A program made the position numbers and the translations under genes. The notes under the pieces are model-generated. The model did not search any database, had not been told where the DNA came from, and saw nothing but the letters and a program-made list of their open reading frames with translations. Shown here piece by piece: positions 25,100-34,955 of a stretch of 64,000 bases of DNA; position 1 is the stretch's first letter; the number at the start of each line of letters is the position of its first letter. Source of the DNA: Synergistaceae bacterium (GTDB lineage: Bacteria; Synergistota; Synergistia; Synergistales; Aminobacteriaceae). Location of the stretch: assembly GCA_018436725.1 (NCBI GenBank), contig JAHDKT010000015.1, positions 1 to 64,000 on the forward strand, in the 5' to 3' direction.

Positions 25100-25303
25100 T
25101 TATTGTATTTTTTCGCTTTCGGGGGAGAAATTTTCCATGGCCATCGCTTGCTCTTCAGAGAAACGTACGTCCAGGAGAAGCGGTAGAACTCCCCTTAGAA
25201 ACTGCGCTTCGGTCAACCTGGAAAAATAAAAACGCGCCCCTCCGTTTTCGTGGCTACTTCGGGGCGCACAAAAAAAACTGTATTTCCGGGAAACGGCTTT
25301 CAT
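25100..25303 (-). CDS. Small hypothetical ORF overlapping the glycosyltransferase stop
   Basis: 67 codons; the ATG overlaps the glycosyltransferase stop (ATGA) and AAGGAG lies four bases before it, which argues for a real coupled gene. The second half (RLTEAQFLRGVLPLLLDV) looks protein-like. Against this, a strong intrinsic terminator lies inside the reading frame at 25221-25267. No family recognised. Confidence 0.35.
   Translation of the reverse strand: MKAVSRKYSFFCAPRSSHENGGARFYFSRLTEAQFLRGVLPLLLDVRFSEEQAMAMENFSPESEKIQ
25221..25267 (-). terminator. Terminator after the glycosyltransferase gene
   Basis: On the minus strand the stem GCGCCCC/GGGGCGC (25261-25267 with 25234-25240) is followed by GTTTTTATTTTT. 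It would end the transcript of the glycosyltransferase gene. Confidence 0.7.
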
Positions 25304-27027
25304 ACCGCTCCTTTTCTCTTCGAACGATAAATACCGGTTTTTGTTAAAAGTACCTTCACCACAAACGCAAAAAGGTCAAGGTCTTTTTTCCATCTCCAGG
25401 GTTCCTGCAAAAGACGGTAAAACCATTCGAGCCCTATCTTCTGAAGAATCTTCGGGGCTCGTTTCAACGCCCCCGAGACAACGTCGAAAGCGCCGCCTAC
25501 TCCTACGGCGAGCAGATCTCCGAGGGCTTCGGCGTTTTCGGAGACCCATATCTCCTGTTTGGGAATGCCCATCGCGACGAAGAGAATTTTTGCCCCGCTC
25601 TTCCTTATTTCTTCCGCCACGGATAAATCTCTTTCATCGAAATAACCGTCACGGAAACCGGCAACGACAAGATCAGGGAAACTGCTCCGGAGTTCGGCAA
25701 CTGTCTTTTCAACTATATGCGGACGCGATCCGAGAAGATAAACGGGCCACCCTTCTGCGGCAGCCATACGGGCAAGACCTATCATGTAATCGATCCCGGT
25801 TACACGTTCTTGAACAGGGGTACCCAGCAACTTAAGCGCCCAGACCAGGCCCGTCCCGTCAGCGAGAGTTAAAAATGAACCGTCGAGAGCCGCCGCGTAC
25901 TTTTCGTTTCTCTCCGCCTCCATCACCGCTAAAGCGTTCACGGTTGCAATCAGGCGGGCGCCTCTGCCGGAGACAAGCCCTCCCCGCGCTTTTGAAAGGG
26001 CATAGTTCATCGAGACGTTATCTATGGTCGTTCTCCAGATGGACGGTCTCAGTGGCATTTCCACATTCTCCTTCATATTCCGTATAGCCGGAGCCAGAGT
26101 GATACCGGCGAAAAGGATTGCAAGGCTCGCTACGAGCATCATCGACAGAGGATGCCCGAGTTGCGAGATGGCGACTGCGGATCCTCCAAGAGCGCAGAGA
26201 GAAGTAATGAACCGGACGGCGCTCGGATGATCCAGCCCCTTCCCTATCAATTTGCTGTACAGGACTGCGGCGTTCGATGTTTTAGAGGAGAAGGCGCGGT
26301 GCATGAAGTTCAGCGACGCTTCCATTATAGGAATGGCGAAGAGGCCGAGAGGTAGAATCATCAACGTACCGAACGTAATCCCTTTGCTTACGCCCAAAAC
26401 CGAGGTTCCCGCCACAAGCACGCCCCACATCGCAGCAAGCGCTTCGCCCATGCGCCGGTACATATGGCCGTGACGACTCCAGAAAACTCCGAGGAAGAGA
26501 AGTCCTGAGACGGACATGAAAAAAGCATCCTGCAGATTCTGGCCGGAGAAGACCGTCGCGGCCAGCAGAAGCGAGAACGAAACCGCGAGCAGATGACCGG
26601 CCATGCCTGGTATGTTATCCAATTCCTGCAGGAGCACTGGGAACGCGGAGACCCAGATCGCGGTGATAAGCACGGACACCTCGACCGGGAGGAAGTGATA
26701 CTGACCTGCGGGAAGACCTACGAAGGCGATCCTCGGCCCGAAAAAGGCGAAGACGAAACCTATGAGTAGATACACCGGCTTCCACAGTGCGTTTGGATAA
26801 ATATGCTGCACCATGCCGAACACAGCGGCAAGAACCGACATTCCTACGATGAAGCGGGACGAAGGATTTCCGACGCACAGAGCCGCCAGAATCCAAGCCG
26901 CAATGAGAGTCAGGTCACGGAAATAGTTGTATTGCGTCTTGTCCATGCTTCTCCTGCAGACGCGCTGCGCAAAAAAACAGAGCACCGTCAGGGGAATCAC
27001 ACATAAAAGAATGCTGGAAACGTACAT
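25300..27027 (-). CDS. Fusion: degenerate WecA/MraY-like membrane domain + WecG/TagA/CpsF (GT26) glycosyltransferase
   Basis: 575 residues. The first 320 form about ten membrane segments laid out like the polyprenyl-phosphate sugar-phosphotransferase family, but with its active-site motifs lost: the GLxDD segment is GMVQH (71-75), the DGxDGLA segment is DNIPGMA (137-143) and the HLHHRLL segment is VLYSKLI (255-261). Residues 340-560 are a full GT26 domain: TVNALAVMEAE, LADGTGLVWALKLLG with the Asp-Gly pair, ERVTGIDYM, FVAMGIPKQEIWV, and GVGGAFDVVSGALKRAPK. GT26 enzymes add the second sugar to an undecaprenyl-linked precursor of envelope polymers. I infer that the decayed domain anchors the enzyme or binds the lipid carrier. 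The nearest Shine-Dalgarno sequence is 27 bases before the ATG. Confidence 0.85.
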   Translation of the reverse strand: MYVSSILLCVIPLTVLCFFAQRVCRRSMDKTQYNYFRDLTLIAAWILAALCVGNPSSRFIVGMSVLAAVFGMVQHIYPNALWKPVYLLIGFVFAFFGPRIAFVGLPAGQYHFLPVEVSVLITAIWVSAFPVLLQELDNIPGMAGHLLAVSFSLLLAATVFSGQNLQDAFFMSVSGLLFLGVFWSRHGHMYRRMGEALAAMWGVLVAGTSVLGVSKGITFGTLMILPLGLFAIPIMEASLNFMHRAFSSKTSNAAVLYSKLIGKGLDHPSAVRFITSLCALGGSAVAISQLGHPLSMMLVASLAILFAGITLAPAIRNMKENVEMPLRPSIWRTTIDNVSMNYALSKARGGLVSGRGARLIATVNALAVMEAERNEKYAAALDGSFLTLADGTGLVWALKLLGTPVQERVTGIDYMIGLARMAAAEGWPVYLLGSRPHIVEKTVAELRSSFPDLVVAGFRDGYFDERDLSVAEEIRKSGAKILFVAMGIPKQEIWVSENAEALGDLLAVGVGGAFDVVSGALKRAPKILQKIGLEWFYRLLQEPWRWKKDLDLFAFVVKVLLTKTGIYRSKRKGAV

Positions 27028-27123: not shown

Positions 27124-28879
<1,756 letters not shown>

Positions 28880-33508: not shown

Positions 33509-33539
33509 TGCTTCAGAATGCATTGGAGGTGCTGAGAAA

Positions 33540-34955
33540 ATGGGTTTGATGCTGTATAACGATCTGACGCGGAAAAAAGAACCGTTCGTCCCTCTCAAAG
33601 AGGGGCATGTGGGCTTCTACAGTTGCGGCCCCACGGTCTACGATTTCTTTCACATAGGCAATGCGCGCCCCTTCATCGTCTTCGACGTTCTTCGGCGCTA
33701 CCTTGAGTACAGCGGCTACAAGGTCGCCTTCGTCCAGAATTTCACCGACATCGAAGACAAGATGATCAACAGGGCGAACCAGGAGGGCATCACCGTCAAG
33801 CAGCTCGCGGACAGGTTCATCGACGAGTACTACAAAGACGCCGACGCTCTCGGAATCCGCCGCGCCACATATAATCCGAAGGCGACCGAGCACATGGAGG
33901 AGATCGTCGCGCTGATCCAAAAACTCGTCGACAAGGGGCACGCCTACGAATCCGACGGAGACGTCTTCTTCGACGTGGCAAGCTTCCCCTCGTACGGCGC
34001 CCTTTCGAAGCAGAGCCTTGAAGAGCTTCAGTCGGGAGCGCGGGTGGAGATCAACGAGCGCAAACGCCACCCTCTGGACTTCGCACTCTGGAAAGCGAAG
34101 AAAGAAGGCGAACCATTCTGGCCAAGCCCGTGGGGTGAAGGGCGCCCCGGGTGGCACATCGAATGCAGCGCAATGTCCATGAAATATCTCGGAGAGACCC
34201 TCGACATCCACTCCGGCGGAACCGATCTCACCTTCCCGCACCACGAGAACGAGGTCGCCCAGACGGAGGCGGCGACGGGAAAACCCTTCGTCCGCTACTG
34301 GATCCACAACGGATATCTCCTGATCGACAAGGAGAAGATGTCGAAGTCGCTCGGCAACTTTCTCACCGCGAGGGCGGCGCTTGGGAAGTATCCGGCGAAG
34401 GCCATCCGCCTTTTCATGCTCAGCGCGCACTACAGATCGCCGATCAATTTCTCCGAGGAGAGCCTGAACCAGTCTCTCGGCGCGGTCGAACGCCTGGACA
34501 ACTGCTGGTCAGACCTGGCGCACGCAAGAAAAAACAGAAAGGCGACGAGCGAGGGACCTCGCGCGGAGTTCGAGGCGCTTTTCAAAGGATTCGAGGAGCG
34601 TTTCGTTGCGGCGATGGACGACGACTTCAACACCGCCGCGGCTCTTGGCGTTCTCTTCGAGGCCGTCAAGACGGTGAACACCTATCTGAAAGAAACGCAG
34701 ACACTTGAAGAGGCTTTCCTGGAGCGCGCCGAAAACTTCTTCCGGAAAATCGACTCGGTGATGGGCGTGTTGGGACTCGACGCCGAGAGCGGATACGAAG
34801 ACGTCGCGGAGATAGAGCAGCTCATCGCGGAGCGTAACGCCGCACGCAAGAACAAGGATTTCAAGCGGTCCGACGCTCTCCGGGACGAGCTTGCCGCCAG
34901 AGGCATCCTCCTTGAAGATACCCCCGACGGCACAAAGTGGAAGAGAAAAGCGTAA
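33540..34955 (+). CDS. cysS: Cysteinyl-tRNA synthetase
   Basis: Charges tRNA-Cys. 471 residues: YSCGPTVYDFFHIGNAR contains the first zinc Cys and the HIGH-like motif; KEKMSKSLGN is the KMSKS loop; HSGGTDLTFPHHENE supplies further zinc ligands. GGAGGT lies 11 bases before the ATG. It is one of three plus-strand genes, and ends four bases from the convergent queT. Confidence 0.97.
   Translation: MGLMLYNDLTRKKEPFVPLKEGHVGFYSCGPTVYDFFHIGNARPFIVFDVLRRYLEYSGYKVAFVQNFTDIEDKMINRANQEGITVKQLADRFIDEYYKDADALGIRRATYNPKATEHMEEIVALIQKLVDKGHAYESDGDVFFDVASFPSYGALSKQSLEELQSGARVEINERKRHPLDFALWKAKKEGEPFWPSPWGEGRPGWHIECSAMSMKYLGETLDIHSGGTDLTFPHHENEVAQTEAATGKPFVRYWIHNGYLLIDKEKMSKSLGNFLTARAALGKYPAKAIRLFMLSAHYRSPINFSEESLNQSLGAVERLDNCWSDLAHARKNRKATSEGPRAEFEALFKGFEERFVAAMDDDFNTAAALGVLFEAVKTVNTYLKETQTLEEAFLERAENFFRKIDSVMGVLGLDAESGYEDVAEIEQLIAERNAARKNKDFKRSDALRDELAARGILLEDTPDGTKWKRKA

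Follow-up and report, generated by a model that had tools for sequence, protein, structure and literature searches.

Enzymes that build saccharides on the undecaprenyl carrier act in turn on the same scarce lipid, and to our knowledge the question of how one of them hands its intermediate to the next is still largely open. A gene from a Synergistaceae bacterium (assembly GCA_018436725.1) raises this question in a direct form, for it joins in one reading frame a membrane domain resembling the enzymes that load the first sugar and a glycosyltransferase of the type that adds the second. The window analysed here is a stretch of 64,000 nucleotides (contig JAHDKT010000015.1, positions 1 to 64,000), and the genome to which it belongs is called the source genome below. 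The domain anatomy of the protein, a dead WecA-fold domain joined to a GT26 enzyme, is nearly certain; the role of the dead domain has to be argued. The initial annotation of this DNA had reported an open reading frame of 575 residues at 25300-27027, which is indeed found there, and its parts and neighbours are as follows.

25300..27027, minus strand: fusion gene, 575 aa, pseudo-WecA (predicted PNPT-fold) membrane domain and GT26 (TagA-type) glycosyltransferase
26053..27027, minus strand: N-terminal domain, residues 1-325, predicted MraY/WecA/DPAGT1 fold, catalytic motifs lost, D137 kept
25336..26049, minus strand: GT26 domain and C-terminal appendage, approximately residues 327-564 (positions 329-567 of the profile)
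25384..25872, minus strand: core PF03808 match, residues 386-548
27124..28404, minus strand: serS (seryl-tRNA synthetase), upstream neighbour of the fusion gene
28388..28879, minus strand: ribH, member of the conserved order ribD-ribBA-ribH-serS-fusion

The start codon was set at the ATG at 27027, in agreement with relatives; AGGAGG lies about 24 bases upstream of this ATG, a distance that would allow translation to begin a few codons before it. By eye, an inverted repeat is visible 3' of the gene (25220-25270, minus strand; GCGCCCC...GGGGCGC), accompanied by a T-run, and the fusion gene may therefore be the last of a rib-serS unit; a scan for consensus terminators listed none directly 3' of the gene, this repeat included.

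The C-terminal half matches PF03808 in a Pfam scan (E 5.8e-61, 205.6 bits with a cut-off of 27.4) and TIGR00696 at 177.7 bits (cut-off 69), and it scores 154.9 bits for the TarA equivalog NF041710, under the cut-off of 350. A profile of the fusion family aligns with residues 3-240 of the TagA chain 7mpk (E 6.4e-86), the corresponding segment of the window protein being residues 327-564 or thereabouts. Residues D390, T362, R538, R545 and K548 occupy the positions of Asp65, Thr37, Arg214, Arg221 and Arg224 of TagA, respectively; the first four are invariant in all 78 fusion sequences, that of the window included, and the Arg224 position is a Lys in the window protein. As reported for TagA, Asp65 is the proposed catalytic base and Thr37 a proposed sugar-positioning residue, the importance of Arg221 is shown by mutation, and the C-terminal appendage is required for both activity and membrane binding (PMC6493773). 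This appendage is also present in the fusion. Judged by its sequence, the GT26 half is a complete TagA-type enzyme that keeps its catalytic residues and appendage, which bears out the initial annotation in its reading of this half as an intact WecG/TagA/CpsF enzyme.

The N-terminal half is more divergent. With its 324 residues alone as query, neither Pfam nor NCBIfam gives a match, even when E values up to 10 are admitted, and the Pfam scan of the window protein finds no match to PF00953. Relatives of the deepest lineage do match this family, L050 (E 1.1e-9) and L051 (E 2.5e-9) over the cut-off and L049 (E 4.1e-5) under it, and the other seven of the ten relatives whose N-domains were scanned do not; any PF00953 match at E<=1 is found for 6 of the 78 fusion N-domains, three of the six having been identified among the ten. 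A direct search with the Glycos_transf_4 profile, as first proposed for this half, thus fails on the window protein and succeeds in two deep relatives. Profile-profile alignment of the N-domain with 31 WecA sequences spans 240 columns at a probability of 92.5 (P 4.9e-7), and at 73.8 (P 2.9e-5) with the three deepest sequences removed. The controls gave P values of at least 0.28 for five E. coli membrane proteins, 0.1 for a reversed profile and at least 0.15 for eight block-shuffled profiles. Against E. coli WecA alone the match is weak (P 0.0046), and comparisons with MraY are not significant, whether with a three-sequence alignment (P 0.18) or with E. coli MraY (P 0.54). Since the WecA alignment is significant and the MraY comparisons are not, the N-domain is WecA-like by sequence; it is too divergent to be placed within the PNPT tree.

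Structure prediction agrees with this assignment. The AlphaFold2 model of the N-domain alone, computed from the 78 sequences, has a pLDDT of 88.1, a pTM of 0.88 and 11 long helices. Every one of the first 31 Foldseek matches is an MraY or a DPAGT1, the first unrelated one having an E of 0.34, and VIA gives a Z of 24.2 over 279 residues at 3.6 A, its first unrelated row standing at Z 6.5. The N-domain is therefore predicted to adopt the MraY/WecA/DPAGT1 fold, and the layout that the initial annotation had seen in the N-terminal 320 residues holds by profile, by VIA and by Foldseek. An unrelated membrane protein was considered as the source of this domain and rejected on the WecA profile match, both structure searches and the controls. 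The missing Pfam match of the window's own N-domain could still speak for an unrelated fold, or for a fusion created in assembly, yet the structural and profile matches, the direct PF00953 matches in deep relatives and the existence of 78 distinct full-length fused sequences reduce this reading to a negligible probability. The matches retrieved by a full-length model are TagA for ranks 1-14, followed by MraY/DPAGT1 for ranks 15-38, but the relative placing of the two domains is uncertain because the pTM of this model is only 0.63, as compared to 0.88 for the N-domain alone. Lys or Arg make up 8 of the 54 residues in the loops assigned to the cytoplasm and 2 of the 33 on the opposite side, a bias by which the GT26 half would lie on the cytoplasmic side, that of the UDP-sugars.

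The fate of the catalytic motifs was followed in one alignment that combined 78 N-domains of the fusion with 31 WecA sequences (30 from Synergistota and that of E. coli) and three MraY sequences. The 78 are the distinct sequences of at least 540 aa among the loci in hand, exact duplicates and eight partial sequences (L046, L048, L052-L057) having been dropped; the fetched loci L150-L159, L162, L164 and L166-L170 were left out of the analysis. All 31 WecA sequences keep D92-D93, D142, D192 and the central His of the DD, DG, GD and HxHH motifs. In the window protein, the DD pair is replaced by Q74/H75, the Asp of GD by E195 and the central His of HIHH by Y257, and the family as a whole departs in the same manner. 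The first DD position is Gln in 46/78 and Glu in 21/78, with Asp in 1/78 at most; the second is His, Lys or Arg in 54/78 and Asp or Glu in 3/78; the GD aspartate is kept in 1/78 and is Glu in 37/78; and of the HxHH histidines the first remains in 2/78, the last in 7/78 and the central one in none, all 78 bearing Tyr. The DGxDG motif fares otherwise, since its first Asp (D137) is kept in 78/78 and its last Gly (G141) in 77/78, its second D/N being replaced, by Pro in 63/78, at a position where Synergistota WecA often has Asn. The motif loss first described for this domain (DD, DGxDG and HxHHR) therefore stands for DD and HxHH, extends to the GD aspartate and fails in part for DGxDG; no relative with intact catalytic motifs occurs among the 77 aligned. 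The position of WecA F189 is Arg or Lys in 48 of the 78 fusions. Positions of the N-domain conserved at 90% or above include Q21, Y33, Y35, D38, R185, R191, W201, K215, P233, E236 and H267, and by the helices of the model most of the charged residues among them would face the old active site.

This pattern does not resemble decay. For the pair L009-L010, the only one of ten with unsaturated dS, dN/dS is 0.028 in the N-domain (dS 0.49) and 0.074 in the GT26 half; where a ratio was defined for the N-domains of the other pairs, it lay between 0.036 and 0.119, with dS above 1. The window protein and its nearest relative are 93% identical in the N-domain and 89% overall, an order that is reversed at the deepest level, where three sequences of a separate lineage (f11) show 21-23% in the N-domain and 28-29% overall. 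The low ratio and the invariant residues indicate that the N-domain is not decaying, and the decaying relic, implied when the domain was first termed decayed, was rejected on these two grounds. By its sequence variation, the N-domain is under purifying selection and has invariant residues of its own; it appears to be a conserved pseudoenzyme.

The fusion is nearly as widespread as the phylum. Of 185 Synergistota genomes, 176 contain a match to it; among the 115 with completeness of 90% or more and contamination of 5% or less the figure is 114, and completeness ranges from 55 to 93% in the nine genomes that lack a match. Among the 150 matches listed, 149 span from residue 15 or before to residue 562 or beyond, and one spans 56 to 570. 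PF03808 is found in 173/185 genomes, 168 of which have a single match, and its frames reach at least 530 aa in 145 of the 150 matches listed, the five shorter ones belonging to G059, G073, G178, G181 and G182; the fusion is thus normally the sole GT26 of a Synergistota genome. Three genomes of f11 carry it as frames of 577 to 580 aa, and a fourth (G001) carries it in pieces on two contigs. A scan of genome contigs with single-sequence patterns returned four Synergistota loci and a standalone 249-aa GT26 protein in a Flavobacteriales genome, such patterns finding close relatives and saying little on other phyla. Of 260 plasmid records that match the fusion none covers 80% of it, the N-domain alone has no match among plasmids, and a profile scan of viral contigs found no relative of the N-domain. 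The survey of the phylum suggested at the outset accordingly finds, in almost every genome covered, what is probably the second-sugar enzyme of a cell-wall anchoring polymer seated on a dead copy of the first-sugar enzyme.

The surroundings of the gene are conserved as well. Near the fusion in 43 flanked loci are ribH (41), ribBA (38), ribD (38) and serS (38), serS stands beside it in 8 of 12 further loci, and all four genes are present in each of the three f11 loci. The spread that includes f11, along with the conserved rib-serS locus, indicates that the fusion descends from an ancestor of the phylum Synergistota. Nine of the ten neighbours scanned with Pfam are recR, ybaB, rlmH, serS, ribH, ribBA, ribD, uvrC and a gene for a PIN protein, among which is no polysaccharide gene, as had been remarked from the sequence at the start; the tenth, an open reading frame upstream of uvrC (33513-34430, minus strand), has no Pfam match at E<=1e-5, yet lies near the fusion in 29 of the 43 loci.

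Partners for the fusion have to be sought elsewhere in the genome. The source genome holds two PF00953 genes, one that we take to be mraY, after a gene presumed to be murF, and one for an intact WecA-like protein of 297 aa; the homologue whose search the initial annotation had recommended is hence at hand. The latter gene is followed by one for a UDP-GlcNAc 2-epimerase, the WecB of this genome scoring over its equivalog cut-off, and lies on a different contig from the fusion. The source genome (G000) measures 4.78 Mb with 7.07% contamination, and four drafts of the same genus measure 2.2-3.3 Mb, an excess that calls for caution wherever a claim rests on a single contig of this bin. Despite the 7% contamination of the bin, its WecA is likely not a contaminant, because same-genus genomes carry it, at 66-81% identity. 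The WecA query matches 173/185 genomes, and the motifs are intact in 30/30 copies aligned, which are those of the best 30 of the 173. Some weak matches (G056, 1.5e-8; G168, 3.4e-16) may be MraY or fragments; the f11 matches are weak, and the f11 copy in L163 has DD, DGIDG, GD and HIHH. One genome (G145, 92% complete) has the fusion and no match to the WecA query. Another, the deep-branching G005 (lineage f12, 82% complete), matches PF04230 twice and SLH twice, and gives no match to the fusion, PF03808 or the WecA query.

Further enzymes of a known kind of pathway accompany these. CsaB of the source genome exceeds its equivalog cut-off (233.9 bits with a cut-off of 213.1); PF04230, a broader family than CsaB, is matched in 175/185 genomes, the CsaB identity itself applying to the source genome only. 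A single LCP match is found in each of the 10 genomes tested, and the genes for a pyruvylated secondary cell-wall polymer (SCWP), namely WecA, WecB, CsaB and LCP, are all present in the source genome. SLH domains are found in 144/185 genomes, fewer than the fusion, and the source genome encodes two SLH proteins, each of about 500 aa, that weakly resemble a porin family, scoring under its cut-off. The CsaB gene adjoins one for a DUF5693 protein (E 1.3e-106), their frames overlapping at L160:9020-10135 and 10039-12045 on contig C46, and the latter protein may have a part in that polymer pathway too. On a single contig in each of seven genomes (G000, on C46, and G026, G030, G031, G032, G041 and G119), a PF04230 gene and an SLH gene lie about 22.4-22.7 kb apart, a spacing that suggests a conserved envelope region.

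These genes can be arranged into a route. The separate, intact WecA would make Und-PP-GlcNAc and WecB/MnaA would make UDP-ManNAc, from which the GT26 half of the fusion, in the cytoplasm, would add ManNAc to Und-PP-GlcNAc; CsaB would then pyruvylate the ManNAc of the polymer, an LCP ligase would attach the polymer to peptidoglycan, and outer-membrane porins bearing SLH domains would bind it in its pyruvylated form. This proposal draws on the partner genes, on the reconstitution in vitro of MnaA, TagA and CsaB of Paenibacillus alvei with a GlcNAc-diphosphoryl-lipid analogue (PMC6030368), and on the inclusion of Synergistetes among the phyla listed with SlpA/OmpM-type connectors (PMC9388160). 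The likely task of the fusion is thus the transfer of ManNAc onto Und-PP-GlcNAc for a pyruvylated polymer bound by SLH porins, and the assignment to such a pathway is held with good confidence.

What the dead domain contributes is a finer question. The best explanation overall, to which we give a probability of roughly 0.65, is that the fusion is a TagA built on a dead copy of WecA that docks the acceptor, and that it works in the above pathway. The dead domain would hold or receive the lipid-linked acceptor in its old active-site groove, directly or by way of the live WecA, and the second sugar would thereby be added at the membrane face; that the domain either docks this acceptor or pairs with the live WecA is somewhat favoured. 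A narrower form, put forward tentatively and at less than even odds, makes the dead domain a metal-free receptor that captures Und-PP-GlcNAc, alone or with WecA, and passes it to the fused TagA site. Neutral or basic residues in place of the acidic metal ligands would suit the holding of a pyrophosphate, the product of WecA, without metal, but the basic replacements vary between lineages, which counts against docking. MraY and DPAGT1 are homodimers, and a doubtful version of the overall explanation, able to stand by itself, holds that the dead copy is a subunit paired with the live WecA; a single complex would then let Und-PP-GlcNAc move from WecA to TagA. In its favour, the fusion occurs in nearly every genome of the phylum, as does a WecA match, and dead paralogs that pair with a live enzyme are known for other enzymes (PMC5201418, PMC3663545); against this stands the location of the two genes on different contigs of the source genome.

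Two simpler accounts carry less weight. An anchor or a platform for the lipid is a plausible use of such a domain, and 11 helices would anchor a glycosyltransferase whose counterpart in Bacillus subtilis, TagA, is a peripheral membrane protein (PMC6493773). Yet the GT26 half retains the appendage that alone tethers TagA, so mere anchoring is the weaker version of the proposal and fails to explain the invariant residues; D137 and Y257 are kept in 78/78 and R185, R191, E236 and H267 in at least 90%, and a plain anchor needs none of these polar side chains. We consider anchoring as the sole function improbable. An N-domain that still acts as an enzyme with altered residues is less probable still. 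The invariance of D137 and the frequency of Glu at the GD aspartate (37/78) and the first DD position (21/78) would accord with it, but the metal pair and the central histidine are devoid of the WecA residues (Asp in at most 1/78, Asp or Glu in 3, His in none), and the genome has an intact WecA besides. Docking of the acceptor by the dead domain, with or without WecA, thus remains the preferred reading.

We know of no described pseudoenzyme in the PNPT superfamily, and a literature search of the best matches among open-licence PMC papers found none. Throughout this phylum, the second enzyme carries a disabled form of the first whose inactivated site is still under selection, and acceptor docking or channelling could be tested directly on the fusion. 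The fusion is also the likely enzyme for the polymer that the SLH outer-membrane porins of Synergistota would bind. If the narrower receptor reading is true, substrate channelling would have been built into the pathway for an outer-membrane tether ligand and conserved since the origin of the phylum.

Among known systems, the N-domain shares with the PNPT superfamily (WecA/TagO/MraY/DPAGT1, PF00953) the predicted fold, the order of helices and the invariant first Asp of DGxDG, and differs in lacking the metal pair, the GD aspartate and the HxHH histidines and in bearing a fused glycosyltransferase. The other half resembles TagA/TarA of GT26 (5WB4, 5WFG, 7MPK, 7N41; 'T. italicus' in PMC6493773) in its profile match and its catalytic Asp and Thr, and two of the three appendage arginines are invariant in the fusion family, the third being Lys in the window; however, the TagA chain has 244 residues, is soluble or peripheral and lacks any polytopic domain, whereas the fusion carries one. 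The pathway as a whole finds its closest likeness in the pyruvylated SCWP of P. alvei, for which homologues of MnaA and CsaB, together with WecA and LCP, are also present in the source genome (PMC6030368), but the TagA of Synergistota would carry a dead WecA domain, its genes lie on different contigs, and Synergistota, unlike P. alvei, are diderm (PMC9388160). In this last respect the comparison is with the tethering of the outer membrane by SLH porins (OmpM/SlpA) in diderm Terrabacteria (PMC9388160, PMC10628300), to which the two SLH proteins of the source genome would correspond.
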